A program made the translations under genes and the position numbers. A stretch of DNA of 64,000 nucleotides from a virus. The stretch's first letter is position 1; the number at the start of each line of letters is the position of its first letter. The notes beneath the pieces were generated by a model. The model searched no databases, had not been told where the DNA came from, and saw only the letters and a program-made list of their open reading frames with translations. Of the stretch, positions 896 through 11,977 are shown one piece after another. The stretch covers positions 90,412 to 154,411 of the IMG/VR virus record IMGVR_UViG_3300042307_001176; one strand, 5' to 3'.

Positions 896-928
896 TCTAA
901 AAACATTTTTTTTATAATAGAAAAGTTC

Positions 929-936
929 TATATTTG
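929..936 (+). promoter_or_regulatory. early promoter -7 element of tRNA array A (TATATTTG)
   Basis: TATATTTG matches the Bacteroidota -7 consensus TAnnTTTG. A run of T at 906-913 is placed correctly for the -33 element. The leader ORF begins 37 nt downstream, almost the same distance as in arrays B (33) and C (39). Confidence 0.75.
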
Positions 937-972
937 TGAAACAAAATAACAAAGAGAACATATAATACTCAA

Positions 973-1032
973 ATGAACAAAACAATTAACATATTACCTA
1001 TATCATTAAGACCGTCGTCAAGACGATCCTAA
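973..1032 (+). CDS. leader peptide A, 19 aa, putative attenuator ORF
   Basis: A 19-codon ORF, MNKTINILPISLRPSSRRS, follows the TATATTTG promoter. Its last twelve codons are TTA CCT ATA TCA TTA AGA and then CCG TCG TCA AGA CGA TCC: almost entirely Pro, Ile, Ser and Arg, the amino acids carried by the tRNAs of the array that follows (Ser-UGA, Arg-UCU, Pro-UGG, Ile-UAU, Met). Ser appears only as TCN, and two of three Arg codons are AGA. The stop codon lies inside an anti-terminator segment (1030-1038) that can pair with the terminator's 5' arm. By analogy with amino-acid biosynthesis attenuators, I infer that stalling on these codons would allow transcription of the tRNAs. No ribosome-binding site is obvious, as is usual in this genome. 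Confidence 0.75.
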   Translation: MNKTINILPISLRPSSRRS

Positions 1033-1099
1033 AGGTCCTATGTTAATAAAAAATAATCATTAACTAAACCGGGACCTTTAAAAGTCTCGGTTTTTTTTT
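1030..1099 (+). terminator. attenuator A: alternative anti-terminator and terminator hairpins
   Basis: Terminator: 1067-1075 (AACCGGGAC) pairs with 1084-1092 (GTCTCGGTT), nine pairs with one G-U, followed by nine T. Alternative: 1030-1038 (TAAAGGTCC, including the leader stop codon) pairs perfectly with 1072-1080 (GGACCTTTA). Because both use 1072-1075, the two structures exclude each other. Confidence 0.8.
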
Positions 1100-1100
1100 G

Positions 1101-1112: not shown

Positions 1113-1129
1113 TGTTGGATTATAAAATT

Positions 1130-1219
1130 GGAGAGTTGCCAGAGCCAGGCTTAATGGATCAGTCTTGAAAACTGACGTAGCGAAAGTTACCGGGGGTTCG
1201 AATCCCTCACTCTCCGCCA
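1130..1219 (+). tRNA. tRNA-Ser(UGA)
   Basis: Cloverleaf with acceptor GGAGAGT/ACTCTCC, anticodon loop CTTGAAA giving anticodon UGA, a long variable arm typical of tRNA-Ser and an encoded CCA. First tRNA of array A. It reads UCA and UCG, the Ser codons used in leader A. Confidence 0.95.
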
Positions 1220-1222
1220 ATT

Positions 1223-1296
<74 letters not shown>

Positions 1297-1463
1297 CACA
1301 AAGCCCTCTGCCTAGCGCTGGGTATGGATCGAAGATAGAATATGCCTCTACAACGTAGACAGTTAGAATATTTCGGTATTCTTTAATGATATGCACACTT
1401 ATTCTCTAAATCGTGGGTTAGCACAGTTTGTATGTTCTGGGGATATTTAAAGACATACAATTT
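1297..1463 (+). other. 167-nt gap in tRNA array A with several hairpins
   Basis: No tRNA or ORF is convincing here. The stretch has small stems: GGTAT/ATGCC (about 1320-1347), CTAC/GTAG (about 1349-1359), AGAATA/TATTCT (about 1366-1382) and TGTATG/CATACA (about 1429-1459). It is co-transcribed with the tRNAs and may be a structured RNA or the remains of tRNA genes. Confidence 0.35.
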
Positions 1464-1536
1464 CGGGATGTAGATCAGTTGGTAGATCGCCTGGTTTGGG
1501 ACCAGGAGGCCGTCAGTTCGAGTCTGGCCATCCCGA
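1464..1536 (+). tRNA. tRNA-Pro(UGG)
   Basis: Acceptor CGGGATG/CATCCCG, anticodon stem CCTGG/CCAGG, loop TTTGGGA giving UGG. Third tRNA of array A; Pro codons CCT and CCG occur in leader A. Confidence 0.95.
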
Positions 1537-1543
1537 CATCAAT

Positions 1544-1617
1544 AGAGGCGTAGCTCAATTGGTTAGAGCACATGCCTTATACGCATGCGGTCACGAGTTC
1601 GACTCTCGTCGTCTCTA
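1544..1617 (+). tRNA. tRNA-Ile(UAU)
   Basis: Acceptor AGAGGCG/CGTCTCT, anticodon loop CTTATAC giving UAU, which reads the rare codon AUA. Two of the three Ile codons of leader A are ATA, while leader C, whose array has tRNA-Ile(GAU), uses only ATC and ATT. Confidence 0.92.
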
Positions 1618-1621
1618 CTTA

Positions 1622-1695
1622 GGTCCCTTAGCTCAGTAGGTTAGAGCAACTGACTCATAATCAGTAGGTCCACGGTTCGAGCCCGTGAGGGACCA
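1622..1695 (+). tRNA. tRNA with anticodon CAU (elongator Met, or Ile2)
   Basis: Acceptor GGTCCCT/AGGGACC, anticodon stem ACTGA/TCAGT, loop CTCATAA giving CAU. It lacks the three-G:C anticodon stem and the 1:72 mismatch of an initiator. It is either elongator Met or a lysidine-modified Ile tRNA; sequence alone does not decide. Confidence 0.85.
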
Positions 1696-1763
1696 CTAAA
1701 TTTTAAAGTCTTTAGGAGAACAAAAGTTCATGCTGGTTCAGATCCAACCTCTTGTATTTTTTG

Positions 1764-1772
1764 GATATATAA
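1764..1772 (+). promoter_or_regulatory. putative late promoter motif GATATATAA
   Basis: GATATATAA lies 7 nt upstream of the lectin-like adhesin gene at 1779. The preceding stretch, 1696-1763, holds no gene; it has a T-arm-like piece (GGTTCAGATCC at about 1735) that may be left from a lost tRNA. Confidence 0.45.
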
Positions 1773-1778
1773 TAAATC

Positions 1779-2150: not shown

Positions 2151-2153
2151 TGT

Positions 2154-3005
2154 ATGGCAACAACAAGACCTTTTTCGTATAATCCAACGCAATCAACAAT
2201 TGCTGGAACTACTAATTTAGGTACCATATGTATAGGAGTATCTGATTTAGACTATGCTGCTAGCCCTGGAGGATTAACGTGGTGGATGGGACCGGATGAA
2301 GATAATTCTTATGTAGTATGCAAGGATGTACCAGCTCAAAATTTCCCTACTCCGTTAGGAAATATAGGCAATGTACAATTTTGGAGATGCACTAATACAG
2401 ATTTAGCATTTAGAGATATGGTATCTACAATAAGTGGTACTACACAAGCATCGGCTTCAGCAGCTAGTGATTGGTTAGCATCTAATAACTATTGGACTAA
2501 CAGAAATCCATATCTTGCAGGTCTATATAAAACAACTTACTCTGGATATTTCGCAGATTCAGTTAGTTTCTTTGCAACTGCAACTCCTCAAGCATTTGGA
2601 ACAAACCCAGCTACTTCTGTACAAACTACTGCAATATCAGAAGCAGCTAGTGGTGATGGTGATTATTTTAGTTGTCAATGGTTGGGTTATTTCAGTCCGA
2701 CTACTACTCAAACTTATACATTTTACACCAACTCGGATGATGCATCTTATGTGTGGGTTGGAGCAAATGCGATATCTGGATTTACTACAGCAAACGCAAC
2801 AGTCAATAATGGAGGTGCTCATGGTCCTATAGAGGCATCAGGTTCTATAGATCTAACTGCAGGAGTTTATTATCCTATAAGAATTCAATTCGGTGAAGCC
2901 GGCGGAGGTGATGTACTTACTTTCAATTATTCAACACCAACGATAGCAAAAACAACTAATGTAACAGGATTAGTTTTCTATAATACATCAACTAACGGAT
3001 TCTAA
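2154..3005 (+). CDS. tail adhesin with PA14-like C-terminal domain, 283 aa
   Basis: Residues 1-118 form a module shared almost unchanged with the next gene (PFSYNPTQSTIAGTTN, WWMGPDEDNSYV, FWRCTNTDLAF). Residues about 150-270 differ and resemble a PA14/GLEYA carbohydrate-binding domain (YFSPTTTQTYTFYTNSDDAS, VWVG, YPIRIQFGEAGGG). I infer a virion adhesin whose N-terminal part docks to the tail while the C-terminal part binds a surface glycan. The gene follows a late-type motif, and its 3' end has been copied into a downstream junk junction (see 3951-4106). No signal peptide. Confidence 0.65.
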   Translation: MATTRPFSYNPTQSTIAGTTNLGTICIGVSDLDYAASPGGLTWWMGPDEDNSYVVCKDVPAQNFPTPLGNIGNVQFWRCTNTDLAFRDMVSTISGTTQASASAASDWLASNNYWTNRNPYLAGLYKTTYSGYFADSVSFFATATPQAFGTNPATSVQTTAISEAASGDGDYFSCQWLGYFSPTTTQTYTFYTNSDDASYVWVGANAISGFTTANATVNNGGAHGPIEASGSIDLTAGVYYPIRIQFGEAGGGDVLTFNYSTPTIAKTTNVTGLVFYNTSTNGF

Positions 3006-3010
3006 AACAT

Positions 3011-3787
3011 ATGGCAACAACAAGAGCATTTTCATATAATCCAACACAATCAACAATTGCGGGAACTACGAATGTGGGTACTCTATGTATAGGTGTATCT
3101 CCTTTAGCATATAGTACTAACCCTGGTGGATTAACCTGGTGGATGGGACCAGACGAAGATAATTCTTACGTGATAGCTAAGGATGTATCAGCTGGAAATT
3201 TTCCCACTCCTGTAGGGAACGTAGGTAATGTACAATTTTGGAGATGCACTAATACGGATTTAGCATTTAAAGATTTAGTATCTATAATAAGTGGTACTGC
3301 ACAAGCATCGGCTTCAGCAGCTAAATCATGGCTAACAACAAATAATTATTGGACTAATTATACCAGTGGTGTAACTTTCTCTCGCCCTTTCGTTAATGGT
3401 ATTGCACCAGGAGCTACCACAGAAACTGCTTGGAATACATTCAGAGCAGCATTAACGGGATCTTATACACAATTTGTTATATCAAATTCATTAGGATTTA
3501 GTCTAACCGTAAGCCATGCTACTTCGGTCCAAACTTTGGCAGATGCTTTAAAAAATGCAACAAGCAATACCTCAGTAACTATAAACAGCGTAGTTTGGAG
3601 AGTGGGAACAGCTTGTGGAACTCCTTCTATTGGTGGAGTTGCTGTTGAATTTTCTAATGTAGGAAGCTGTACTGGATCAAGTACTATAGCATTTAGACCT
3701 ATGATTAATAACTTAAACTGGGGAGGTATGGGTACAGGGTCTACTGTAAGCCAGGCTTCTCAAACAATGACACTAACATTTAGCTAA
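3011..3787 (+). CDS. paralogous tail adhesin with different C-terminal domain, 258 aa
   Basis: Residues 1-118 closely match the preceding protein (PFSYNPTQSTIAGTTN becomes AFSYNPTQSTIAGTTN; same WWMGPDEDNSYV and FWRCTNTDLAF). After NNYWTN the sequence switches to an unrelated Ser/Thr/Val-rich beta domain with two Cys (ACGTP, GSCTG). This is a tandem duplicate in which only the presumed receptor-binding half was exchanged. It begins 5 nt after the previous stop, so the pair is translated together. Role in host binding is inferred from architecture. Confidence 0.6.
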   Translation: MATTRAFSYNPTQSTIAGTTNVGTLCIGVSPLAYSTNPGGLTWWMGPDEDNSYVIAKDVSAGNFPTPVGNVGNVQFWRCTNTDLAFKDLVSIISGTAQASASAAKSWLTTNNYWTNYTSGVTFSRPFVNGIAPGATTETAWNTFRAALTGSYTQFVISNSLGFSLTVSHATSVQTLADALKNATSNTSVTINSVVWRVGTACGTPSIGGVAVEFSNVGSCTGSSTIAFRPMINNLNWGGMGTGSTVSQASQTMTLTFS

Positions 3788-3948
3788 TGGAAAATTATAG
3801 AATAATGAATATAACAGTAACACCATATATTGTTGTTCCTGGTAAAGAATCGCTAACTCTAGAAGAATGCATATTGTGGATAAATGAAAACGGAGGAGAT
3901 TGTCCTTTATGTAATTACACCATACAGCCATCGGAACATAATATATAG
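3787..3948 (+). CDS. small hypothetical protein with CPLC motif, 53 aa
   Basis: An ORF of 53 codons starts at ATG overlapping the previous stop by one base (TAATG), a usual coupling arrangement here. It contains CILW, then CPLC near residues 39-42, giving three Cys that could bind a metal or form a disulfide. No family is recognised. Its position at the end of the adhesin pair suggests an accessory or assembly factor for those proteins, but this is only a neighbourhood argument. Confidence 0.5.
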   Translation: MENYRIMNITVTPYIVVPGKESLTLEECILWINENGGDCPLCNYTIQPSEHNI

Positions 3949-3950
3949 TC

Positions 3951-4029
3951 AGATATATAAGTAATGAAAACATTTAAAGATTTTATTTACGAAAAAATTA
4001 ATGAAGACACATTATCGTATAGGGGATTA
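3951..4029 (+). repeat. 79-bp direct repeat, copy 1
   Basis: Identical to 4219-4297: late-type motif plus the first 66 bases of the gene at 4232. It ends at GGATTA, which is also where a copy of the adhesin 3' end begins. Confidence 0.9.
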
Positions 4030-4062
4030 GTTTTCTATAATACATCAACTAACGGATTTTAA
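3964..4062 (+). pseudogene. chimeric 32-codon ORF from a recombination junction
   Basis: The first 22 codons copy the start of the gene at 4232 (MKTFKDFIYEKINEDTLSYR and on). Then, at a shared GGATTA, the sequence becomes a copy of 2967-3026, the 3' end of the adhesin gene (reads VFYNTSTNGF and stop) followed by the first codons of the next adhesin. The ORF keeps a late-type motif and so may still be expressed as a short peptide with a capsid-targeting-like N-terminus. It most likely marks an illegitimate exchange rather than a functional gene. Confidence 0.7.
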
Positions 4063-4083
4063 AACATATGGCAACAACAAGAG
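4024..4083 (+). repeat. 60-bp copy of adhesin gene boundary (2967-3026)
   Basis: Matches 2967-3026 with a single difference (C to T before the stop). It includes the end of one adhesin, the 6-nt spacer and the start of the next. Confidence 0.9.
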
Positions 4084-4106
4084 AATTTGCATATAATTTA
4101 CAATAA
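4068..4106 (+). pseudogene. truncated third adhesin start, 12 codons
   Basis: ATGGCAACAACAAGA reads MATTREFAYNLQ and then stops. It matches the first codons of the two adhesins at 2154 and 3011 and is the remnant of a third copy whose body was lost. Confidence 0.7.
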
Positions 4107-4134
4107 ATTAAATAAATAGAGAATATTAAAAATT

Positions 4135-4218
4135 AGGCAAAGTAACCACAAACCCACTGGTAATAGGCAGTTCTTGAGATGGAATGCAATATAAAACGTA
4201 AGTCCTGCTTTGCCTTTT
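4135..4218 (+). ncRNA. candidate structured RNA or terminator with a large loop
   Basis: AGGCAAAG (4135-4142) pairs with CTTTGCCT (4208-4215), followed by a short T-run, enclosing 65 nt with further pairing (ACTG/CAGT). It shares a motif (GAGATGGAATGCAA, 4176-4189) with the element at 12505. Possibly a regulatory RNA; a plain terminator is the alternative. Confidence 0.35.
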
Positions 4219-4219
4219 A

Positions 4220-4228
4220 GATATATAA
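4220..4228 (+). promoter_or_regulatory. putative late promoter motif GATATATAA
   Basis: GATATATAA lies 3 nt before the start codon of the gene at 4232. An identical arrangement occurs at 3952-3960, within the duplicated 79 bp. Confidence 0.45.
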
Positions 4229-4231
4229 GTA

Positions 4232-4816
4232 ATGAAAACATTTAAAGATTTTATTTACGAAAAAATTAATGAAGACACATTATCGTATAGGGGATTAAAA
4301 TTTAATTTTAATTCAACTATCGATGGGTATGTTAAAGTAAAAGAAGATGATCCAACTATATCATTTGATAGTGAAACCTCGTTTGATAAACTTATAATAA
4401 CCGATCCTCGTGAATTCTTTAACTTTAGATATGATAATGAAAAGGATAATAAGAACTTATCTTCTATTGATTCAGAAAATGTTCTTAGAATTAGAATTGG
4501 ATCTAAAGATTTTAAGGGAAGATCCGGCGGGGTTACTCATGTATCTGTAAGAGTCCCTGAAAATTTTGACTATAATAAATTTCAATTAGAGTTACCTAAT
4601 ATAAAGATAGCGCTTACAGATAGAACTGAAGTAGACAGAGTTATTAAAGAAGTTGAGGCTCTTGTAACTAAATGTGCAGGGGAAGAACCTAATGCGTATT
4701 CAGATAATAAACCAGATTACAGACAGGACATCGTAAATTTTATTAAATCTATAGAAGAAAAGCTAGGTAAAGAAGATACCAAAAGAATATTTATTGATAT
4801 TATTAATAAATTGTAA
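4232..4816 (+). CDS. hypothetical internal head protein with capsid-targeting-like N-terminus, 194 aa
   Basis: It begins MKTFKDFIYEKINE. This closely resembles the T4 capsid-targeting sequence (MKTFKEF/MKTYQEF type), with two I-x-E sites (IYE, INE) of the kind cut by the T4 prohead protease. The body is charged and soluble, with no recognised domain; residues 85-130 look beta-rich (NVLRIRIGSKDF, VSVRVPENF). It sits behind a late-type motif. I infer delivery into the prohead and possibly ejection into the host with the DNA. A duplicated 5' fragment lies upstream. Confidence 0.6.
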   Translation: MKTFKDFIYEKINEDTLSYRGLKFNFNSTIDGYVKVKEDDPTISFDSETSFDKLIITDPREFFNFRYDNEKDNKNLSSIDSENVLRIRIGSKDFKGRSGGVTHVSVRVPENFDYNKFQLELPNIKIALTDRTEVDRVIKEVEALVTKCAGEEPNAYSDNKPDYRQDIVNFIKSIEEKLGKEDTKRIFIDIINKL

Positions 4817-4854
4817 AATTTAATTTACATAGATAAGAATATATAAAATAAAAA

Positions 4855-5133
4855 ATGAAACATCTTAAAAAATATCAATCTAATAATTCAGAAATTAACG
4901 AAGGATTTTGGGATTCTCTTTTTGGCAAACCCACTGTTGATGATGCTGCTCATGACCAAATGAGAGGTCAAGGATGGAGCCACAGAGGTAAAGACGAAGA
5001 AAATTATATCATGTTTCAAGGACAAAAGTTCTATCCAGAACAGATCCAATATGATGATGCTTATTCAACTAAACAAATACCAAGAGTTGAAGGTGGTATG
5101 CTAATCGTAGCTAACCCAGCTTGGAATTTATAA
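4855..5133 (+). CDS. small protein with capsid-targeting-like N-terminus, 92 aa
   Basis: The N-terminus MKHLKKYQSNNSEINEGFW carries basic and aromatic residues followed by I-N-E, a possible prohead-protease site. The rest (GKPTVDDAAHDQMRGQGWSH and on) contains no known motif and no membrane segment. An AATATATAA motif at 4838-4846 resembles the late promoter. It is the last gene before leader B, whose promoter begins 50 nt downstream. Probable minor internal head protein; the evidence is only the N-terminal pattern. Confidence 0.5.
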   Translation: MKHLKKYQSNNSEINEGFWDSLFGKPTVDDAAHDQMRGQGWSHRGKDEENYIMFQGQKFYPEQIQYDDAYSTKQIPRVEGGMLIVANPAWNL

Positions 5134-5182
5134 TAAAAATAAAAAAATATCAGAAATCGTTTTTTAATGAGAAACTTTTCTG

Positions 5183-5190
5183 TACATTTG
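5183..5190 (+). promoter_or_regulatory. early promoter -7 element of tRNA array B (TACATTTG)
   Basis: TACATTTG matches TAnnTTTG, with T-run 5160-5165 as -33 element. The longer reading frame that starts at 5121 would cross this promoter, so the leader start at 5223 is preferred. A TATATAA at 5194-5200 follows closely. Confidence 0.75.
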
Positions 5191-5222
5191 GAGTATATAA
5201 TAAAAAAGGAACAAAACTTTCA

Positions 5223-5312
5223 ATGAAACACTTTTTAAATATCGCAACAGATTTTCAACTTCGTAAAGAGGATGACCTTCTAGAGGATAGATTTAAGTGT
5301 CAGAGGAAATAA
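5223..5312 (+). CDS. leader peptide B, 29 aa, putative attenuator ORF
   Basis: A 29-codon ORF beginning MKHFLNIATDF contains the consecutive codons GAG GAT GAC CTT CTA GAG GAT (Glu-Asp-Asp-Leu-Leu-Glu-Asp). Array B supplies tRNA-Glu(UUC), Asp(GUC), Leu(UAG) and initiator Met, so these seven codons in a row are all read by its tRNAs. Leu is CTN in three of four cases, although TTA is the usual Leu codon of this genome. The last sense codons (TGT CAG AGG) form the anti-terminator strand. The same frame is open upstream to 5121, but the promoter at 5183 lies inside that extension. Inferred role: ribosome stalling here would permit readthrough into the tRNAs. Confidence 0.75.
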   Translation: MKHFLNIATDFQLRKEDDLLEDRFKCQRK

Positions 5313-5362
5313 ATTTATATAATGATATAATTTAAACCTCTGATAACCTCAGAGGTTTTTTT
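5298..5362 (+). terminator. attenuator B: alternative anti-terminator and terminator hairpins
   Basis: Terminator: AACCTCTGA (5335-5343) pairs with TCAGAGGTT (5349-5357), followed by seven T. Alternative: 5298-5306 (TGTCAGAGG, inside the leader ORF) pairs with 5337-5345 (CCTCTGATA), nine pairs with one G-U. The two compete for 5337-5343. Confidence 0.8.
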
Positions 5363-5371
5363 GTTTTATAC

Positions 5372-5382
5372 GCTCTTTGAAA
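5372..5382 (+). promoter_or_regulatory. boxA-like antitermination sequence, array B
   Basis: GCTCTTTGAAA follows the terminator and lies 5 nt before the first tRNA. It shares GCTCTTT with the E. coli rRNA boxA core and corresponds to TGTTCTTTGACA of arrays A and C. Confidence 0.5.
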
Positions 5383-5387
5383 TTACG

Positions 5388-5457
5388 CTGCCATCGTCTA
5401 ACGGTTAGGACCTATGGTTTTCATCCATAAAATCGGAGTTCGATTCTCCGTGGCAGT
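5388..5457 (+). tRNA. tRNA-Glu(UUC)
   Basis: Acceptor CTGCCAT/GTGGCAG, anticodon stem TATGG/CCATA, loop TTTTCAT giving UUC. First tRNA of array B; Glu codons GAG occur twice in leader B. Confidence 0.93.
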
Positions 5458-5469
5458 ACAAAAAATTAA

Positions 5470-5544
5470 GGTCCCGTAGTTAAACGGCTATAATGCTGCC
5501 CTGTCACGGCAGAGTTCGGAGTTCGATTCTCCGCGGGACCGCCA
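5470..5544 (+). tRNA. tRNA-Asp(GUC)
   Basis: Acceptor GGTCCCG/CGGGACC, anticodon stem CTGCC/GGCAG, loop CTGTCAC giving GUC, encoded CCA. Asp occurs four times in leader B. Confidence 0.95.
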
Positions 5545-5552
5545 AATTATAT

Positions 5553-5625
<73 letters not shown>

Positions 5626-5629
5626 CTAA

Positions 5630-5710
5630 GCCCAGGTGGTGAAATGGTATACACGCTAGTCTTAGAAATTAGTGACGTAAGTCGTGAGGGTTCGAGTCCC
5701 TCCCTAGGTA
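5630..5710 (+). tRNA. tRNA-Leu(UAG)
   Basis: Long variable arm, anticodon stem CTAGT/ATTAG, loop CTTAGAA giving UAG (CUN codons). The acceptor GCCCAGG/CCTAGGT has one mismatch. The RNA-repair-type phosphatase gene starts 3 nt after its 3' end. Confidence 0.9.
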
Positions 5711-5712
5711 CT

Positions 5713-6282
5713 ATGAAAATTATATTTTTAGATCATGACGGTGTAATTTGTCTTTCCCAACAATTTGGAGGACGTTACAAAAAGCAGGCTAAAGCTAGAA
5801 AAAAGCTTTCTCAGGATCTGATGACTTTTCCTGTTGGAGCTAGGTTTGATAATTTTGATAAGAAAGCAATAAAGGTTTTAAATACAATCTTAGAAGAAAC
5901 AGGAGCTGAAATAGTGGTTTCTTCAGATTGGAAAAACTGGGCAACTGTAGAAGAAATGGGTGAATACTATAAAGAGCAAGGAATTATTAAAACTCCTATA
6001 GATTTCACTCCTAGAGAATACACGTTACCAGAGAAACAAGAATGGCATCCAGATTGGGATTTAGAAGCATCAAGAACTTTAGAAATCCAAGAATGGTTGA
6101 AAGATCATCCAGAAGTCTCTCATTGGGTAGCAATAGATGATTTGGATATGAGTTTTAAAGAAGTATCTTCTAATAGAAGCGGTACCGGATGGGGATTAAT
6201 AAATTTCGTACACACTCCAAGCCTTAATGAAGGTATTAAAAAATGTGGAATTAAAGAAAAAGTTTTAAAATTTTTAAAATAA
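5713..6282 (+). CDS. HAD-superfamily phosphatase of the RNA-repair (HAD_SAK) type, 189 aa
   Basis: The N-terminus MKIIFLDHDGVICLSQQFGG carries the HAD motif I (DxDGV). SSDWKNW near residue 77 fits motif II, and AIDDLDMSF near 143 supplies the C-terminal acidic motif. These features match the HAD domain found in polynucleotide kinase/phosphatase and related RNA-repair proteins, which removes 3' or 2',3'-cyclic phosphates from broken RNA. The in-frame ORF extends upstream through tRNA-Leu, but the ATG at 5713, only 3 nt after that tRNA, is clearly the start. Co-transcription with array B suggests healing of cleaved tRNAs, as T4 Pnkp does. No kinase or ligase partner is visible in this window. 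Confidence 0.7.
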   Translation: MKIIFLDHDGVICLSQQFGGRYKKQAKARKKLSQDLMTFPVGARFDNFDKKAIKVLNTILEETGAEIVVSSDWKNWATVEEMGEYYKEQGIIKTPIDFTPREYTLPEKQEWHPDWDLEASRTLEIQEWLKDHPEVSHWVAIDDLDMSFKEVSSNRSGTGWGLINFVHTPSLNEGIKKCGIKEKVLKFLK

Positions 6283-6308
6283 TTTAAGAAATCATTTTTT
6301 TATCCCGT

Positions 6309-6326
6309 TACATTTGGTTATCTTTG
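6309..6326 (+). promoter_or_regulatory. tandem early promoter elements TACATTTG and TATCTTTG
   Basis: TACATTTG (6309-6316) and TATCTTTG (6319-6326) both fit TAnnTTTG, with a T-run at about 6295-6301 at -33 for the second. They precede the gene at 6380 by a 53-nt A-rich leader. Confidence 0.65.
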
Positions 6327-6379
6327 TAATATAAATTAACAAACTTTATTTACAATTTACAATTTACAAAAAACCTATT

Positions 6380-6757
6380 ATGAAAAATCAAAAATTAAAA
6401 AGAGTTACTATGAGTGTATCTCACGAGAATCCTGATGCACAGGTAAATTTTAAATCAATCGGAATTGGAAAAGATCAAAGAGAAGCAGCTATTTTTGCTT
6501 TAGGATCTTTCTTAAATGTTATAGATGGAGTAAGCCAAGAAGGTATATCAGATTACAACGAAGCTTTGGAAATGGTTAATGCTCAATATTCGGAAGCTGA
6601 AATAGTATCATTTACTGAAACCCAATTGGAAAGGGCAAAAGATGCTTTTATTACTACTTACGAAACAACTAAAGTTGATTATGTTTGGGACGAAGTAGAA
6701 GATGGAATGGCTTTGGGCTTGATCGAAGGATTAGAAATAATCGAAGAGGAATATTAA
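6380..6757 (+). CDS. early hypothetical protein, 125 aa
   Basis: Soluble, acidic protein beginning MKNQKLKRVTMSVSHENPDA. It is predicted by eye to have a short beta N-terminal region and then mainly helices (FALGSFLNVIDG, NEALEMVNAQYSEAEI), ending IIEEEY. No catalytic motif is recognised. It has its own strong early promoter and lies between arrays B and C, so it is probably expressed soon after infection, like many host-takeover proteins. A second ATG at residue 11 is an alternative start. Confidence 0.55.
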   Translation: MKNQKLKRVTMSVSHENPDAQVNFKSIGIGKDQREAAIFALGSFLNVIDGVSQEGISDYNEALEMVNAQYSEAEIVSFTETQLERAKDAFITTYETTKVDYVWDEVEDGMALGLIEGLEIIEEEY

Positions 6758-6797
6758 AAAATATCAAAAAACATCTTTTTATTCAAAAAAGATATTG

Positions 6798-6805
6798 TAC
6801 TTTTG
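6798..6805 (+). promoter_or_regulatory. early promoter -7 element of tRNA array C (TACTTTTG)
   Basis: TACTTTTG fits TAnnTTTG with T-run 6775-6779 at -33. The leader ORF begins 39 nt downstream. A late-type GATATATAA at 6826-6834 lies between, so array C may have both early and late transcription. Confidence 0.75.
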
Positions 6806-6825
6806 CGAAACTATTCTGGAAACAG

Positions 6826-6834
6826 GATATATAA
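6826..6834 (+). promoter_or_regulatory. putative late promoter motif GATATATAA within leader C region
   Basis: Exact GATATATAA, 9 nt upstream of the leader C start codon. Leaders A and B have near matches (CATATAATA at 959-967, GTATATAA at 5193-5200). Confidence 0.45.
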
Positions 6835-6843
6835 TTAAGAAAA

Positions 6844-6951
6844 ATGAAAAACTGTAGTAAACATAACATCAATCGCATGATCAGTCAGATTAATGGCTGC
6901 TATCAAACGGTGGCGTTTTGGGCAAAGGGGAAAGAACCCGATCGAAGCTAA
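6844..6951 (+). CDS. leader peptide C, 35 aa, putative attenuator ORF covering 16 amino acids
   Basis: A 35-codon ORF beginning MKNCSKHNINRM and ending in Asp-Arg-Ser-stop. It contains at least one codon for every one of the 16 tRNAs in the array it precedes: Phe, Lys, Trp, Arg, Cys, Ser, Ile, Val, Asn, Tyr, Gly, Ala, Met, His, Thr and Gln. Isoacceptors also match. All three Ser codons are AGT/AGC (tRNA GCU), all three Ile codons are ATC/ATT (tRNA GAU), and both Arg codons are CGC/CGA (tRNA ACG, inosine wobble), although AGA dominates elsewhere. Leu, supplied by array B, is absent. Rare GC-rich codons (GGC, ACG, GTG, GCG, GGG, CCC) make this stretch locally GC-rich. Its end overlaps the anti-terminator strand. 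Inferred: a broad sensor of tRNA supply. Confidence 0.78.
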   Translation: MKNCSKHNINRMISQINGCYQTVAFWAKGKEPDRS

Positions 6952-7013
6952 TACAGGAAATCATATTTAGATATTTTGGAAAAGGCTTTGATTCACATCA
7001 AAGCCTTTTTTTT
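6940..7013 (+). terminator. attenuator C: alternative anti-terminator and terminator hairpins
   Basis: Terminator: AAAAGGCTTTGAT (6980-6992) pairs with ATCAAAGCCTTTT (6997-7009), 13 pairs, loop TCAC, T-run to 7013. Alternative: ATCGAAGCT (6941-6949, ending in the first base of the leader stop) pairs with GGCTTTGAT (6984-6992), nine pairs including two G-U. Confidence 0.78.
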
Positions 7014-7024
7014 GTTCTTTGACA
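7013..7024 (+). promoter_or_regulatory. boxA-like antitermination sequence, array C
   Basis: TGTTCTTTGACA, identical over 12 nt to the copy at 1101-1112 and in the same position, between terminator and first tRNA. Both are followed by an AT-nGG context (CATGTTGG, CATACTGG). Confidence 0.6.
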
Positions 7025-7037
7025 TACTGGAAAAAAT

Positions 7038-7110
7038 GGTACCGTAGCTCAGTCGGTAGAGCACTAGACTGAAAATCTAGGTGTCGCCGGTTCGATTCCG
7101 GCCGGTACCA
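7038..7110 (+). tRNA. tRNA-Phe(GAA)
   Basis: Acceptor GGTACCG/CGGTACC, anticodon stem CTAGA/TCTAG, loop CTGAAAA giving GAA. First tRNA of array C; leader C has one Phe codon (TTT). Confidence 0.95.
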
Positions 7111-7120
7111 CAATTAAAAT

Positions 7121-7193
7121 GATCTCGTAGCTCAGCTGGTAGAGCACCGCACTTTTAATGCGGGAGTCGAGGGTTCGAGCCCCTCCGGGATCA
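7121..7193 (+). tRNA. tRNA-Lys(UUU)
   Basis: Acceptor GATCTCG/CGGGATC, anticodon stem CCGCA/TGCGG, loop CTTTTAA giving UUU. Leader C has five Lys codons (four AAA, one AAG). Lys tRNA is a common target of defence anticodon nucleases. Confidence 0.95.
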
Positions 7194-7199
7194 CTACAC

Positions 7200-7272
7200 A
7201 CATCAGTAGCTCAATTGGTAGAGTGTTGGTCTCCAAAACCAAAGGTTGTAGGTTCGATTCCTACCTGGTGTG
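7200..7272 (+). tRNA. tRNA-Trp(CCA)
   Basis: Acceptor ACATCAG/CTGGTGT, discriminator G, anticodon stem TTGGT/ACCAA, loop CTCCAAA giving CCA. Leader C has one Trp codon. Confidence 0.93.
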
Positions 7273-7278
7273 CTAAAA

Positions 7279-7351
7279 GGCTCTGTAGTTCAAGGGATTA
7301 GAATGGATCACTACGGATGATCTGATCCTGGTTCGAATCCAGGTGGAGTCT
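7279..7351 (+). tRNA. tRNA-Arg(ACG)
   Basis: Anticodon stem GATCA/TGATC, loop CTACGGA giving ACG (inosine, reading CGU/CGC/CGA). The acceptor GGCTCTG/TGGAGTC has three G-U pairs. Leader C uses CGC and CGA, which this tRNA reads, and no AGA. Confidence 0.88.
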
Positions 7352-7362
7352 CAAACAAATAG

Positions 7363-7433
7363 GGTCGTGTGGTCGAGTGGTTAGGCACTAGTCTGCAAAA
7401 CTAGTTATACTGGTTCAATTCCAGTCACGACCT
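7363..7433 (+). tRNA. tRNA-Cys(GCA)
   Basis: Acceptor GGTCGTG/CACGACC, anticodon stem CTAGT/ACTAG, loop CTGCAAA giving GCA. Leader C has Cys codons TGT and TGC. Confidence 0.95.
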
Positions 7434-7450
7434 CAAAAAAATTTAAAAAT

Positions 7451-7588
7451 ATGATGATAGAAAGTAAAATAGTAGCCAGAGGAAGTTTCCCCTCAAGCAG
7501 AGAAAACTTAAGAAGAGAAACATTAAAATTTAATAGAGCCAAAATATTGATCGGAAGAATTAAAAGACTAATTAACAAAGGAAAGTAA
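7451..7588 (+). CDS. small basic protein inside tRNA array C, 45 aa
   Basis: A 45-codon ORF starts MMIESKIVARGSFPSSRENL and ends in a Lys/Arg-rich tail. It lies between tRNA-Cys and tRNA-Ser(GCU), and its stop codon falls in the acceptor stem of that tRNA (7580-7586), so tRNA processing would cut the mRNA at its 3' end. The high Arg/Lys content suggests RNA binding. Because it is embedded in the tRNA transcript, a role in tRNA maturation or translation is possible but unproven. Chance ORF is the alternative; codon usage (AGA for Arg, AAA for Lys) looks like real phage genes. Confidence 0.5.
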   Translation: MMIESKIVARGSFPSSRENLRRETLKFNRAKILIGRIKRLINKGK

Positions 7589-7665
7589 TCTCAGATGGTG
7601 ACGGGGCTCGCCTGCTAAGCGAAGCGTACCTTAATTGGTATTTGGTTCGATTCCAATTCTTTCCG
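7580..7665 (+). tRNA. tRNA-Ser(GCU)
   Basis: Anticodon loop CTGCTAA giving GCU (AGU/AGC), long variable arm with GTACC/GGTAT stem, acceptor GGAAAGT/TCTTTCC with a mismatch at 7:66. It overlaps the end of the small ORF at 7451. All Ser codons of leader C are AGT or AGC. Confidence 0.85.
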
Positions 7666-7671
7666 CAACAT

Positions 7672-7748
7672 TGACATATAGCTCAGTTGGTTAGAGCGTT
7701 GATCTGATACGTCAAAGGCCGAAGGTTCGAATCCTTCTATGTCAACCA
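7672..7748 (+). tRNA. tRNA-Ile(GAU)
   Basis: Acceptor TGACATA/TATGTCA, anticodon stem TTGAT/GTCAA, loop CTGATAC giving GAU, encoded CCA. It complements tRNA-Ile(UAU) of array A; leader C uses only ATC and ATT for Ile. Confidence 0.93.
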
Positions 7749-7753
7749 CATTT

Positions 7754-7826
7754 AGTCTCTTAGCTCAGTTGGCAGAGCGTTTGGTTTACATCCAAAATGT
7801 CGGGGGTTCGAATCCCTCAGGGACTA
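7754..7826 (+). tRNA. tRNA-Val(UAC)
   Basis: Acceptor AGTCTCT/AGGGACT, anticodon stem TTTGG/CCAAA, loop TTTACAT giving UAC. Leader C has one Val codon (GTG). Confidence 0.95.
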
Positions 7827-7829
7827 CAA

Positions 7830-7910
7830 GATTAGAAGCGGCGAATGGGGTTACTTCTCAGAACTTTTAAATTTGACCAAAAAACACCTCGCTCAAATAT
7901 TCTCTAATCT
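7830..7910 (+). ncRNA. tRNA-sized structured element of unknown type
   Basis: Perfect 7-bp terminal stem GATTAGA (7830-7836)/TCTAATC (7903-7909) encloses a further hairpin ATTTGA/TCAAAT. Size and placement resemble a tRNA, but no T-loop consensus or convincing anticodon arm is visible. Degenerate tRNA or other small RNA cut out by tRNA-processing enzymes. Confidence 0.4.
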
Positions 7911-7915
7911 AAACT

Positions 7916-7987
7916 GGGGATGTAGCTCAGCGGTAGAGCTCTCGACTGTTAATCGATAGGTCGCTGGTTCGAATCCAGCCTTCCCCG
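7916..7987 (+). tRNA. tRNA-Asn(GUU)
   Basis: Acceptor GGGGATG/CTTCCCC (one mismatch), anticodon loop CTGTTAA giving GUU, T-loop TTCGAAT. Leader C has four Asn codons. Confidence 0.93.
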
Positions 7988-7992
7988 CAATT

Positions 7993-8074
7993 CGGAGTGT
8001 TGAGCAATTGGCTGCTCAGCTGACTGTAAATCAGCCGCCTTAAGGCATTGGGGGTTCGAATCCCTCCGCTCCGA
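7993..8074 (+). tRNA. tRNA-Tyr(GUA)
   Basis: Acceptor CGGAGTG/CGCTCCG, long variable arm, anticodon stem CTGA/TCAG, loop CTGTAAA giving GUA. Leader C has one Tyr codon (TAT). Confidence 0.93.
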
Positions 8075-8076
8075 CA

Positions 8077-8147
8077 CAGTGTATCTGTAAGATATAGAGA
8101 CGGACAGTCCGACGGTTGAAGTGGATGCGTAATTCCACACGTCTCTA
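8077..8147 (+). ncRNA. structured spacer with 7-bp stem AGAGACG/CGTCTCT
   Basis: AGAGACG (8096-8102) pairs with CGTCTCT (8140-8146), enclosing 37 nt with a GTGGA/TCCAC hairpin; a TATCT/AGATA hairpin precedes it. The stem resembles the acceptor of tRNA-Ile(UAU). Too short for a tRNA; possibly a degenerate one. Confidence 0.35.
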
Positions 8148-8150
8148 AAT

Positions 8151-8226
8151 GCGATAGTAGCTCAGTTGGTAGAGCACCGTCCTTCCAAGTCGGGGGTCGC
8201 AGGTTCGAATCCTGTCTATCGCTCCA
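8151..8226 (+). tRNA. tRNA-Gly(UCC)
   Basis: Acceptor GCGATAG/CTATCGC, anticodon loop CTTCCAA giving UCC, encoded CCA. It reads GGA, the codon used for most of the thousands of Gly residues in the fibre genes. Leader C has GGC and GGG. Confidence 0.93.
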
Positions 8227-8227
8227 C

Positions 8228-8300
8228 GGGGTAGTAGCTCAATTGGCTGAGCGCTTCCTTTGCAAGGAAGAGGATGTGGGTTCAAGTCCCATCTACTCCA
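8228..8300 (+). tRNA. tRNA-Ala(UGC)
   Basis: Acceptor GGGGTAG/CTACTCC, anticodon stem CTTCC/GGAAG, loop TTTGCAA giving UGC. Leader C has GCG and GCA. Confidence 0.95.
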
Positions 8301-8307
8301 CTTATAT

Positions 8308-8380
8308 GGCGAGTTAGCTCAGTTGGTAGAGCGTTGGAATCATACCCCAAAGGTCGGCAGTTCGAACCTGCCACTCGCTA
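8308..8380 (+). tRNA. tRNA with anticodon CAU (elongator Met, or Ile2)
   Basis: Acceptor GGCGAGT/ACTCGCT, loop ATCATAC giving CAU. It lacks initiator features. Leader C has one internal Met codon besides the start, consistent with elongator Met. Confidence 0.88.
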
Positions 8381-8382
8381 CT

Positions 8383-8459
8383 GTGACGGTAGCTCAGTTG
8401 GTTAGAGCGTCTGATTGTGGTTCAGAAGGTCGGGGGTTCGATTCCCCTCTGTCACCCCA
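8383..8459 (+). tRNA. tRNA-His(GUG)
   Basis: Acceptor GTGACGG/CTGTCAC, anticodon stem TCTGA/TCAGA, loop TTGTGGT giving GUG, discriminator C and encoded CCA. The base at -1 is T rather than the usual G. Leader C has one His codon. Confidence 0.92.
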
Positions 8460-8460
8460 T

Positions 8461-8533
8461 GCCTTTGTAGCTCAGTTGGTAGAGCACTTCACTTGTAATG
8501 AAGATGTCGCAGGTTCAATCCCTGTCAAAGGCT
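8461..8533 (+). tRNA. tRNA-Thr(UGU)
   Basis: Acceptor GCCTTTG/CAAAGGC, anticodon stem CTTCA/TGAAG, loop CTTGTAA giving UGU. It reads ACA, the main Thr codon of the fibre repeats; leader C has ACG. Confidence 0.95.
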
Positions 8534-8539
8534 CTAAAT

Positions 8540-8612
8540 TGTCCTGTGGTGTAATTGGCAACACGTCTGGTTTTGGACCAGAAGAGTCCAGGTTCGAGCC
8601 CTGGCGGGACAT
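8540..8612 (+). tRNA. tRNA-Gln(UUG)
   Basis: Acceptor TGTCCTG/CGGGACA, anticodon stem TCTGG/CCAGA, loop TTTTGGA giving UUG. Last tRNA of array C; leader C has CAG and CAA. Confidence 0.93.
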
Positions 8613-8659
8613 CTAAAAAATAAGATAAATAGATTGACCAGTGTGTAAAAAATGTAGTT

Positions 8660-9148
8660 ATGAAAGTGCTAGTTCTAAATAATGACTTTACTCCTATAAG
8701 TGTTACCGACTTTGCTCGTGGATTTAAGCTTGTGTATAAAGGTAAAGCAGAAGTTTTAGAGCACGATGAACAAAATCCAATTGTTACTGAACAAAGCACT
8801 TACAAAAGACCTTCTGTTATCAGACTTTTAAAATATGTTGTATTGCCTTTTAAGAAGTTAAAACCGACTAGGGAAAATATCTTTAGAAGAGATGGGATGA
8901 AATGTGTTTATTGTGATACTACTAAGAACCTAACAATAGATCACGTTCTACCTAGATCTAGAGGTGGAGTTAATACATGGGAGAATCTAACAACATGTTG
9001 TTCAAAATGTAACAATAAAAAAGATGACAGGACTCCAGAAGAAGCTGGAATGAGAATGAGACAGAAACCATTCAAGCCAGGATACGGATATTTTATACGC
9101 AATTTCGCAAAAGGATTGGAGGTATGGACAGCATATCTCCCTGATTAA
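8660..9148 (+). CDS. HNH endonuclease, 162 aa
   Basis: The N-terminal half (MKVLVLNNDFTPISV) is the conserved lead-in of a bacterial HNH family. The nuclease core spans about 70-130: RRDGMKCVYC, then LTIDHVLPRSRGGVNTWENL with catalytic His, and CCSKCNNKK completing a two-CxxC zinc site. The enzyme probably nicks or cuts DNA. It follows array C by 47 nt and may be co-transcribed with it. A homing role is possible, since such genes often sit beside tRNA clusters, but the full-length, freestanding form could also serve in packaging or host DNA degradation. Confidence 0.8.
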   Translation: MKVLVLNNDFTPISVTDFARGFKLVYKGKAEVLEHDEQNPIVTEQSTYKRPSVIRLLKYVVLPFKKLKPTRENIFRRDGMKCVYCDTTKNLTIDHVLPRSRGGVNTWENLTTCCSKCNNKKDDRTPEEAGMRMRQKPFKPGYGYFIRNFAKGLEVWTAYLPD

Positions 9149-9155
9149 AAATTAA

Positions 9156-9186
9156 CCCCGGATTTATCAATAATCTGGGGCTTTTT
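9156..9186 (+). terminator. rho-independent terminator after HNH gene
   Basis: CCCCGGATT (9156-9164) pairs with AATCTGGGG (9172-9180), followed by C and five T. It ends the array C-HNH transcript. Confidence 0.85.
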
Positions 9187-9233
9187 GTGGAAATCTTTAT
9201 CGTCACATAATCTATAAGAAGTAAACTATTATT

Positions 9234-10298
9234 ATGTTATTTGATTTTGACGATATCTTAATTGAACCTGAAATACAAACCCACATTAGATCAAGAAAAC
9301 AGGTCGATGTAATGGACGAAAAACAAATGCTTCCTCTCTTTACTGCACCTATGGATACAGTTATAAATGAGGATAATATAAATATATTTAATAACAATAA
9401 AATATATGGAATTATTCCCAGAAAAGCCAATCCTGGATTAGATTACTTCTCAACTAATTATAAGGTATGGTATTCCTATGGTTTAGATGATTTTAAGAAG
9501 ATATTTATTGAAAATGATATAAACCTAAAGATAGGTGAAAGATCGTTTGTCTTAATTGATGTAGCAAATGGTCATATGAAATATGTTAAGGACTTAGTTA
9601 AAGAATCAAAAGAAAAATACGGAAGATCTTTAGTGCTAATGGTGGGAAATTGTGCTAATCCATCTACATTTTTATCTCTGTCACAAGTTGGAGCGGATTA
9701 CGTCAGAATGGGAATAGGTAACGGAGCTGGGTGTCTAACCACCGTTCAAACTGGTATCGGTTACCCTATGGCATCTTTAATTCATGAAACAGTTAAGATA
9801 CAACAAGAAAGAAACCTCACAACAAAGATAGTAGCAGATGGAGGTTTTAAAAAATATGCAGATGTTATTAAAGCATTGGCTTTAGGAGCTGACTATGTTA
9901 TGCTTGGTAGTATTTTTAATAAAACATTAGAAAGTTGTGGCGAAACATATGAAGGTAATAAAAAATATGATTCATGGACCGAGCCTGGTGACAAAGTAGA
10001 CCAATACTCTTTAGATGTTCTAATACAATTTGAAGCTGGTAAAAAATTCTATAAAAAATTTAGAGGCATGTCAACTAAGGATGTGCAGAAGAGTCTAGGC
10101 AAAACAGAATTAAAAACATCAGAAGGAATTTCTAAAATGCAACCAGTTGAATATACTCTTACCGGATGGATTGAGAACTTTACTGATTATTTAAAATCTG
10201 CTATGAGTTATACTGATTGTTTAACTATTGGTGAATTTATTGGAAAGGTTAGATTCAATAAAATTTCAAAAAATTCAATGGAAAGATTCAATAAATAG
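9234..10298 (+). CDS. IMP dehydrogenase / GMP reductase family enzyme, 354 aa
   Basis: The catalytic loop GNGAGCLTTVQTGIGYP contains the nucleophilic Cys (residue 167). The phosphate-binding segment ADGGFKKYADVIKALALGAD and YVMLGSIF follow as in the family, with GMSTKDVQ as the later flap. CBS domains are absent and the length equals GMP reductase more than IMPDH. The enzyme would act in purine nucleotide interconversion (IMP/XMP/GMP). A guanylate kinase is encoded at 51498, so the phage appears to manage its guanine nucleotide supply. Which direction it catalyses cannot be decided by eye. Confidence 0.82.
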   Translation: MLFDFDDILIEPEIQTHIRSRKQVDVMDEKQMLPLFTAPMDTVINEDNINIFNNNKIYGIIPRKANPGLDYFSTNYKVWYSYGLDDFKKIFIENDINLKIGERSFVLIDVANGHMKYVKDLVKESKEKYGRSLVLMVGNCANPSTFLSLSQVGADYVRMGIGNGAGCLTTVQTGIGYPMASLIHETVKIQQERNLTTKIVADGGFKKYADVIKALALGADYVMLGSIFNKTLESCGETYEGNKKYDSWTEPGDKVDQYSLDVLIQFEAGKKFYKKFRGMSTKDVQKSLGKTELKTSEGISKMQPVEYTLTGWIENFTDYLKSAMSYTDCLTIGEFIGKVRFNKISKNSMERFNK

Positions 10299-10339
10299 GA
10301 AACTAGATCAGGTTTTTTAGTATAATAAAGAAAAAAATA

Positions 10340-11125
10340 ATGAAAAAGTTTGGGCGTTTTAATGATGTGATCCGTTGGACTGCACAACAAATGTACGATT
10401 ACTCATATGAGGTACATACAGAAAAATGGCAGGGTAAGGAGATTAAACATGATCCTAAGTACACAATGATTGAAACATTAAACCTTTCTTTTTCGTGTCA
10501 GATGTCACCGGATATTAAAGAGATAGGTGAACAGATTAAACCAAATTTTGCATGGGCAGACGAACACTTTGAAGAAAGAGTTAGCGGATTACCATTGAAC
10601 CCTCCTCCCTCACATGTGAGATGGCCTTATGCTCAAAAGAATAATGAGGAATTTGGAGGACTTGAAAAATTTTCACATACTTATCCAGAAAGAATCTGGC
10701 CCAAATTTGCATCAGAAATTCCTAACAGTAAGATGTCAGGAATAAGATATGAATACGGGGATTTTAATGATGTTGTTGAATTAATGTCAAGAGAACCTTT
10801 CACTAGACAAGCATTCCTTCCTATTTGGTTTCCTGAAGATACTGGATCAGTTACAGGAGAAAGAGTTCCTTGTACTATTGGATATCATTTCATTAGGAGA
10901 GGAGATTGGGTACATGTTGTTTATTATATTAGATCTTGCGATTTCTTTAGACACTTTAGAGATGACATTTATCTTTGTGCTAAAAAAGTATTCTGGTTAA
11001 TTGAAAAACTAAAAGAAAAAGATCCAGAGAATTGGAATAATGTAAAACCTGGTATGCTTACTATGCACATTACTTCTTTACATGCTTGGGCAGTAGAAAA
11101 GTCTTTGCTAAAGAAATTAATGTAA
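10340..11125 (+). CDS. thymidylate synthase superfamily enzyme, possibly dCMP hydroxymethylase-like, 261 aa
   Basis: The signature region reads QAFLPIWFPEDTG, then RVPCTIGYHFI with the catalytic Cys at about 178, then YYIRSCDFFRHFRDDIYL. The RSCD arginine and serine bind phosphate in this superfamily. Thymidylate synthases have an Asn in the following FNI motif; here the aligned residue is Asp (about 209). Asp at this site is characteristic of dCMP hydroxymethylase, which acts on cytosine. This implies a deoxycytidylate substrate and perhaps modified DNA, but overall divergence makes the alignment uncertain. It follows the IMPDH-like gene by 41 nt and so probably belongs to a nucleotide-metabolism operon. 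Confidence 0.7.
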   Translation: MKKFGRFNDVIRWTAQQMYDYSYEVHTEKWQGKEIKHDPKYTMIETLNLSFSCQMSPDIKEIGEQIKPNFAWADEHFEERVSGLPLNPPPSHVRWPYAQKNNEEFGGLEKFSHTYPERIWPKFASEIPNSKMSGIRYEYGDFNDVVELMSREPFTRQAFLPIWFPEDTGSVTGERVPCTIGYHFIRRGDWVHVVYYIRSCDFFRHFRDDIYLCAKKVFWLIEKLKEKDPENWNNVKPGMLTMHITSLHAWAVEKSLLKKLM

Positions 11126-11138
11126 TGATATATATTGG

Positions 11139-11969
11139 ATGCTTAAACATCTAAAAGATTTTAAAAATTTTAGTCTATTCGAATCGATTAGAATAGAAAA
11201 AATGGATCCTTCCACATACGAAAAAGAAACAGTTACTGCTTTACCTTATGTTGATAAGATAGAGGAAAATAGACAATTATTTCTTAAAAAACTTTGTAAA
11301 ATTTCAGAAGAGCTAGATATAAAACCAGAATGGCTTTTACATACAATATTTCATGAAAGTAGGTTTGATCCTAAGTACAGAGATCAAATGTCACGTGCAG
11401 TAGGACTTATTTCTTTTCTTCCTAGTATTTTAAAAATATTTATCAACGATGAAACAGGTAAAACAATAACGCCTAATGACGTTTTACAAATGAGCAATAT
11501 TGATCAATTGGACTTAGTTGCGGAATTTTATAAAATGTGGTTCGAAAAAATGAAATTAAAATCACCAATTATTGCTGGAGATTTTGCAGCTTTAACTTTC
11601 TATCCTGCAGTAATACAAAAGGATTGGGGGTGGAAATTCCCTGATTATGTAGTGGATTTAAATATAGAAATGTTTAATAAGTTCCCTTCTGGTGTTGGTA
11701 GAACTAAAAAAGATTATTATGATTATATTGATCAAGTATTAAATAACAATACTGAACAAGATGATGATAATGATTATATACTAGGTAATTTTGGTGGTGC
11801 TTTTGCAGAGCCAGGAGTATATAGTAATAAGAAACCTTTAGAATTTTATAAAGATCTTTTATTTGCTATACAAGATCCAGCACAAAATCAAGAGCTACAA
11901 GCTCAGGACATAGAAAATACAGAGAAATCCAAGCAGATTGGTACACTAGGAATAAACAACGTAAAATAA
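11139..11969 (+). CDS. lytic transglycosylase (SLT-like) with capsid-targeting-like N-terminus, 276 aa
   Basis: The N-terminus MLKHLKDFKNFSLFESI has the basic/aromatic pattern and an L-F-E site like the putative head-targeted proteins here. Residues about 60-100 (DIKPEWLLHTIFHESRFDP, then SRAVGLISFLPS) match the soluble lytic transglycosylase core, with catalytic Glu in HES and the A-x-G-L helix. The C-terminal third is acidic and low-complexity. I infer a muralytic protein carried inside the head and ejected to open peptidoglycan during DNA entry. It starts 13 nt after the TS-like gene with a GATATATAT motif between. Confidence 0.7.
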   Translation: MLKHLKDFKNFSLFESIRIEKMDPSTYEKETVTALPYVDKIEENRQLFLKKLCKISEELDIKPEWLLHTIFHESRFDPKYRDQMSRAVGLISFLPSILKIFINDETGKTITPNDVLQMSNIDQLDLVAEFYKMWFEKMKLKSPIIAGDFAALTFYPAVIQKDWGWKFPDYVVDLNIEMFNKFPSGVGRTKKDYYDYIDQVLNNNTEQDDDNDYILGNFGGAFAEPGVYSNKKPLEFYKDLLFAIQDPAQNQELQAQDIENTEKSKQIGTLGINNVK

Positions 11970-11977
11970 AATATAAA

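Follow-up and report, generated by a model that had tools for sequence, protein, structure and literature searches.

The E. coli trpL, hisL and ilvGMEDA leaders control amino-acid operons by ribosome-mediated transcription attenuation. T-box riboswitches bind uncharged tRNA directly and have no leader ORF, and boxA/Nus-factor antitermination acts in rRNA operons. Some phage tRNAs act against host defences directed at tRNAs (van den Berg 2023, PMC10264068; PMC11555353), and the expression of these tRNAs has been attributed to a strong phage tRNA promoter (PMC11555353). We looked for attenuation or a leader in both of these papers and found neither. Here we describe short ORFs that precede phage tRNA arrays and list in their codons the tRNAs encoded downstream; judging from the sequences, each array is very probably under ribosome-mediated transcription attenuation.

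The window, by which we mean the whole stretch of DNA that was analysed, comprises 64 kb of a 154-kb viral contig. Its terminase is akin to the terminases of jumbo and T4-like phages, among them the Tenacibaculum and Prevotella Lak phages. No relative turned up when genome contigs were searched for the terminase. Three arrays (A, B and C) hold all of the tRNAs of the contig apart from one weak match elsewhere. All three begin in the same order, with a promoter element of the Bacteroidota type (TAnnTTTG) followed by a short ORF, an intrinsic terminator, a boxA-like site and the first tRNA. The features are as follows:

929..936, + strand: promoter element TATATTTG of leader A, from the sequence
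973..1032, + strand: leader A ORF, MNKTINILPISLRPSSRRS and stop
1031..1038, + strand: antiterminator A, AAAGGTCC, overlapping the stop codon and complementary to GGACCTTT of terminator A
1068..1099, + strand: intrinsic terminator A
1130..1696, + strand: array A, Ser(tga) Arg(tct) Pro Ile(tat) Met, by ARAGORN
5183..5190, + strand: promoter element TACATTTG of leader B, from the sequence
5223..5312, + strand: leader B ORF, MKHFLNIATDFQLRKEDDLLEDRFKCQRK and stop
5300..5306, + strand: antiterminator B, TCAGAGG, in the codons C-Q-R, complementary to CCTCTGA of terminator B
5334..5362, + strand: intrinsic terminator B
5387..5711, + strand: array B, Glu Asp Met Leu(tag), by ARAGORN
6798..6805, + strand: promoter -7 element of leader C, Bacteroidota-type TAnnTTTG (TACTTTTG), from the sequence
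6844..6951, + strand: leader C ORF, 35 codons, MKNCSKHNINRMISQINGCYQTVAFWAKGKEPDRS and stop, by translation and near-identical DNA in relatives
6940..6948, + strand: antiterminator C, GATCGAAGC, in the last codons D-R-S, pairing with the terminator C 5' arm GGCTTTGATT, G-U pairs included
6981..7013, + strand: intrinsic terminator C (AAAGGCTTTGATTCACATCAAAGCCTTT and a T run)
7038..8613, + strand: array C, Phe Lys Trp Arg(acg) Cys Ser(gct) Ile(gat) Val Asn Tyr Gly Ala Met His Thr Gln, by ARAGORN and Rfam, with Ser(gct) by eye
7013..7025, + strand: boxA-like element TGTTCTTTGACAT of array C, from the sequence
1101-1118, 5370-5384 and 7013-7030: boxA-like sites (TGTTCTTTGACAT / CGCTCTTTGAAAT) in the gap between terminator and first tRNA of arrays A, B and C, the last of them containing the element listed above

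Several other features of the window were observed. Structured, conserved-looking non-tRNA elements lie between or near the tRNAs at 1298-1463, 7828-7916, 8076-8151 and 4134-4217, and an element resembling the last of these is found near the end of array B in another locus (L009). A small ORF (MMIESKIVARGSFPSSRENLRRETLKFNRAKILIGRIKRLINKGK, 7454-7588) lies within array C and its 3' end overlaps the start of tRNA-Ser(gct). A very long protein with collagen-like or GTSGSS repeats, probably a fibre or adhesin, is encoded at 53554-57627.

Leader C contains every amino acid except Leu (19 of 20). ARAGORN identified 15 tRNAs in array C, and a 16th, tRNA-Ser(GCT), can be read by eye at 7580-7667, although ARAGORN and, at its gathering score, Rfam both overlook it; with this tRNA added to the 15, the set of 16 amino acids given for the array in the initial annotation is correct, and translation together with the tRNA calls bears out its claim that the leader holds all 16 of them and no Leu. 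The annotation had taken 6844-7013 as the leader; this interval does contain the ORF (6844-6951), and it also includes the terminator (6981-7013). Random draws of 34 codons with the window protein composition covered the 15 non-Met amino acids without Leu in 324 of 2,000,000 cases (1.6e-4), and the annotation's remark that the codons are GC-rich agrees with a GC content at third positions of 51% in leader C vs 25% in the terminase gene. Glu, Pro and Asp had been described as extras near the end of the leader; they are indeed there, all in the zone just before the antiterminator at 6940-6948, starting 6, 3 and 0 nt ahead of it. These three codons are expected to be blind because a ribosome stalled there would be indistinguishable from one that had finished translation.

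The match extends to codon families. Leader C uses AGY for Ser, ATC/ATT for Ile and CGN for Arg, corresponding to Ser(gct), Ile(gat) and Arg(acg) in array C. In leader A all Ser codons are TCN, Arg is mostly AGA and Ile is mostly ATA (two codons), corresponding to Ser(tga), Arg(tct) and Ile(tat) in array A. Leader A also contains TTA codons, and the region at ~1697-1760 was examined as a possible lost tRNA-Leu(taa) and is an ambiguous remnant.

Leaders recur in IMG/VR relatives of the window phage. The DNA of leader C is nearly constant among them, including at synonymous positions, and the upstream flank has diverged. It had been expected that a leader would follow the tRNA content of its array, and this was found in part. 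In a leader of the A family (L045), codons for His and Thr are present and the array behind it carries tRNA-His and tRNA-Thr, and in another locus (L017) the leader has Phe replacing Tyr and array C is without Tyr. In one relative (L012), however, the situation that the annotation had set against its own reading does occur: leader C is intact and all that is left of array C is Phe, Arg, Cys, Ile, Thr and Gln. Here the leader looks as though it lags behind a recent loss of tRNAs. Cellulophaga phage phi4:1, which belongs to a separate lineage, has three arrays with three leaders that divide the amino acids among themselves. Additional viral loci were obtained by scanning for the terminator plus boxA pattern. 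Leaders from outside the window include:

MKIQRLHLQELEQPIISGGTGV of phi4:1, before Pro Glu Gln His Leu Leu Arg
QLTKTGITVIDKTKGARAYLGDTVIG of phi4:1 (GTG start), before Ala Lys Ile Gly Met Asp Thr Val Arg Met
MKTNYCTYNNSNWSFSYDTG... of phi4:1, before Tyr Ser Asn Trp Phe
MTTTQQIQQQQINQTD, before three tRNA-Gln
MSNIINIQPQPQHHPQGC, before Pro-His-Gln-Gln
MRSFRKYYYGKKSYKKY..., before Tyr Lys
MNTITNIASYESYYEEGN..., before Glu and Tyr
MKAISVHIIHIWEHLLEEV..., before His Glu Val Trp
MKTLNMTYCMHPVCGMIHMFPCGGGR... of Prevotella phage Lak-B1, before His Pro Arg Arg Gly Gly Cys
MMKCSWFEFDTDFTDVFYCEYTFYS... (gp86) of Bacillus phage G, before Cys Asp Phe Tyr Glu Thr Ser and, farther downstream, tRNA-Trp
MNNILHINLLNSLCLLGIKLIG of a 735-kb metagenomic phage, before five tRNA-Leu

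Agrobacterium phage Atu_ph07, Salicola phage SCTP-2 and metagenomic phages of 400-735 kb share this design, which is found in phages of Bacteroidota, Firmicutes and Proteobacteria. One phage (L018) combines matching leaders with CCA-encoding tRNAs and sigma-70-like promoters. The leader of Vibrio phage KVP40 covers an array of 27 tRNAs except for Gly, its antiterminator is weak, and it probably belongs to the same design. TAnnTTTG was found within 90 nt upstream of 26 of 51 non-redundant leaders (2.6 expected), and boxA-like sites are present at 27 of 52 leader loci. The design is widespread and not universal, since this screen found no such leader in the tRNA-rich phages T5, phiCbK, 121Q and crAss001 and none is present in the annotated region of T4 (annotation only). 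A Certrevirus array (L179) likewise gave no leader candidate. Suppressor-like tRNAs with the anticodon tta, which reads a stop codon, were called by ARAGORN in some tRNA-rich phages (L093, L155 and L191). A host origin was considered by searching 84,980 genomes for the terminator, boxA and tRNA pattern and was rejected: the six matches are all Bacteroidota MAG contigs, and those that have an array carry the Thr-Tyr-Gly tRNA operon and no leader. Chromosomal Bacteroidota Thr-Tyr-Gly tRNA operons (L172, L173, L174, L175, L176 and L177) were observed to start with a promoter-proximal hairpin, a T run and boxA, and have no leader ORF.

Leader-array pairs for the wider set were picked by ORF and terminator geometry only, with an intrinsic terminator between leader and array as a selection criterion, and were then made non-redundant. 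The mean coverage of array amino acids by the leader was 0.986 vs 0.678 for permuted pairs (n=44 pairs; sd 0.037, max 0.828), although the choice of the longest ATG ORF and the scripted definition of a terminator may have mis-assigned a few leaders. Precision was 0.462 vs 0.286 in the same 44 non-redundant pairs, and none of 100,000 permutations matched the observed coverage or precision. When the sensor part alone was considered (49 pairs with a recognisable antiterminator), coverage was 0.935 vs 0.520 and precision was 0.599 vs 0.325. The idea of a checklist ORF put forward in the initial annotation is thereby supported for leaders A, B and C and for 44-52 non-redundant leader-array pairs from several phyla. 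Codon families also follow the isoacceptors for Arg (CGN/AGR, p=0.0012), Leu (p=0.0034) and Ile (p=0.0021). Ser families were not separated across the set (p=0.74), partly because ARAGORN misses Ser tRNAs. Sensor codons end in G or C at a frequency of 0.32 vs 0.18 predicted from coding usage (p=8e-10), which fits the use of weakly decoded codons, although 0.32 equals the plain AT-rich base composition and may come from an absence of codon bias.

The leaders could instead be general sensors of translation or starvation, with the amino-acid match arising only from a need for many codon types. Large leaders (e.g. C and that of KVP40) do contain nearly all amino acids, but narrow leaders (MTTTQQIQQQQINQTD, MSNIINIQPQPQHHPQGC and MRSFRKYYYGKKSYKKY) precede small arrays and the pairing is specific within genomes. 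In eight genomes with two to seven arrays, which were curated by hand, the true pairing had the top precision in 8/8, and 26 of 27 leaders covered their whole array vs 15 of 82 mismatched pairs from within a genome. We therefore regard a general sensor as improbable.

The antiterminator/terminator switch is a step beyond what the initial annotation had proposed. The duplex of the leader's own antiterminator with the terminator arm scored 18.9 vs 12.9 +/- 0.37 in permuted pairs (z=16); in some leaders (e.g. L066, L128 and KVP40) the antiterminator is weak or was not recognised. For all three leaders of the window, RNA folding predicts the antiterminator structure in nascent RNA that stops short of the 3' arm of the terminator. 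When the whole untranslated RNA is folded, A and C favour the terminator and B favours the antiterminator, and with a ribosome placed at the stop codon the terminator alone remains in all three folds. A 1:2 pause or anti-antiterminator hairpin was not evident in the folds of leaders A-C, and none was consistently recognised.

Among the tests, the position of the codons bears most on the mechanism. Array codons, expected at about 32% throughout, reach 78-79% of codons in the zone 13-30 nt ahead of the antiterminator, compared with 55-61% farther upstream (31-60 nt) and 46% closer in (4-12 nt); where the antiterminator starts they fall to 23%, and past that point they stand at 27%. The footprint of a ribosome extends roughly 12-15 nt past the A site on the downstream side, and the listed codons thus end where a stalled ribosome would start to cover the antiterminator. 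This is the profile expected if a stalled ribosome leaves the antiterminator free. The anatomy, the match between codons and array, the complementarity of the antiterminator and this profile are all read directly from the DNA.

The same profile bears on whether the product of a leader might itself have a function, e.g. as a small peptide that binds tRNA or regulates, in which the range of amino acids is incidental. Leader C is strongly conserved in relatives and gp86 of phage G is annotated as a protein gene, as such a peptide would predict. However, leaders of different arrays have no common sequence and share only the match to their own array, for three of the four amino acids with split codon families the codons agree with the tRNA isoacceptor, an agreement that a working peptide could do without, and in-array codons cease at the antiterminator, so that we consider a functional peptide highly unlikely. 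It is also very doubtful that the polarity is reversed, with stalling in the leader causing termination and the arrays being transcribed only under healthy translation. Sequence alone cannot give the polarity of the translation state, but the terminator 5' arm has a second, mutually exclusive partner at the end of the leader, and the listed codons are placed upstream at a distance just sufficient for the antiterminator to stay clear of a stalled ribosome, an arrangement that matches the trp/his logic. It is almost certain that neither chance nor an effect of base composition and of the way ORFs were selected accounts for the match. Short ORFs are common and some mismatched pairs have high coverage (15/82 full), but permutation of pairing, arm complementarity and position excludes this explanation for the set, though a single leader might be mis-assigned.

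Ribosome-mediated attenuation of the arrays would proceed as follows; we infer that the leader is translated, that ribosomes stall and that polymerase reads through, as well as in which direction the switch acts and what triggers it physiologically. RNA polymerase would initiate at the promoter and a ribosome would translate the short leader. When all listed tRNAs are available and charged, the ribosome would reach the stop codon and mask or disrupt the antiterminator, the terminator hairpin would form and transcription would end before the array. When any listed tRNA is scarce, for example because a host anticodon nuclease has destroyed it or because the host tRNA pool is lost, the ribosome would stall about 10-60 nt upstream, the antiterminator would pair with the terminator 5' arm and the polymerase would continue into the array, perhaps aided by the boxA-like site. 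The newly made tRNAs would then lift the stall and close the loop. Because a shortage of any listed tRNA would stall the ribosome, one leader would act as an OR-gate over the tRNAs of its array. We think it likely that large phages of several phyla carry an unrecognised class of codon-checklist attenuators that monitor tRNAs singly in infection and release replacement tRNAs on demand, and that would in this way both detect and counteract the targeting of tRNAs by host defences or the decay of tRNAs.

The leaders would record in their codons what the phage monitors and when its tRNAs may be wanted, namely when a specific tRNA is missing. The idea is open to direct test in the cultured phages phi4:1, phage G, Atu_ph07 and SCTP-2. 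If it is true, attenuation extends from amino-acid synthesis to tRNA supply, a multi-input gate can be made from a single short ORF, and arrays and leaders read jointly would predict which tRNAs are attacked in infection. Additionally, the leaders could serve as ready-made reporters of codon-specific tRNA depletion. Searches of the open-access full texts of published papers returned no earlier description. The new part is the target and the logic: tRNA arrays placed under leaders that list the tRNAs they encode.

The phage arrays resemble T-box systems in that transcription would be controlled by tRNA status and differ in having a leader ORF; a T-box riboswitch was rejected, as an Rfam search of window positions 1-12000 gave tRNAs only, with no T-box covariance match and no other family. 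The TGTTCTTTGACAT-like element precedes untranslated stable RNAs as boxA does in rRNA operons, but in the phages it lies between a conditional terminator and a tRNA array. In the systems of PMC10264068 and PMC11555353, the replacement by phage arrays of host tRNAs depleted in infection would give such a switch a purpose. The leaders are closest to attenuators of the trp/his type and would work like them, with matching regulatory codons, an intrinsic terminator, an antiterminator near the end of the leader and the corresponding codon placement. Both have a short leader rich in regulatory codons (its translation being presumed in the phages), mutually exclusive antiterminator and terminator structures, and a terminator ahead of the controlled genes. 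The phage leaders differ from the amino-acid operon attenuators in that they are phage-borne, that one to about 16 amino acids are listed as an OR-gate and that their targets are tRNAs, and because the controlled genes are the tRNAs themselves the molecule sensed would also be the product.
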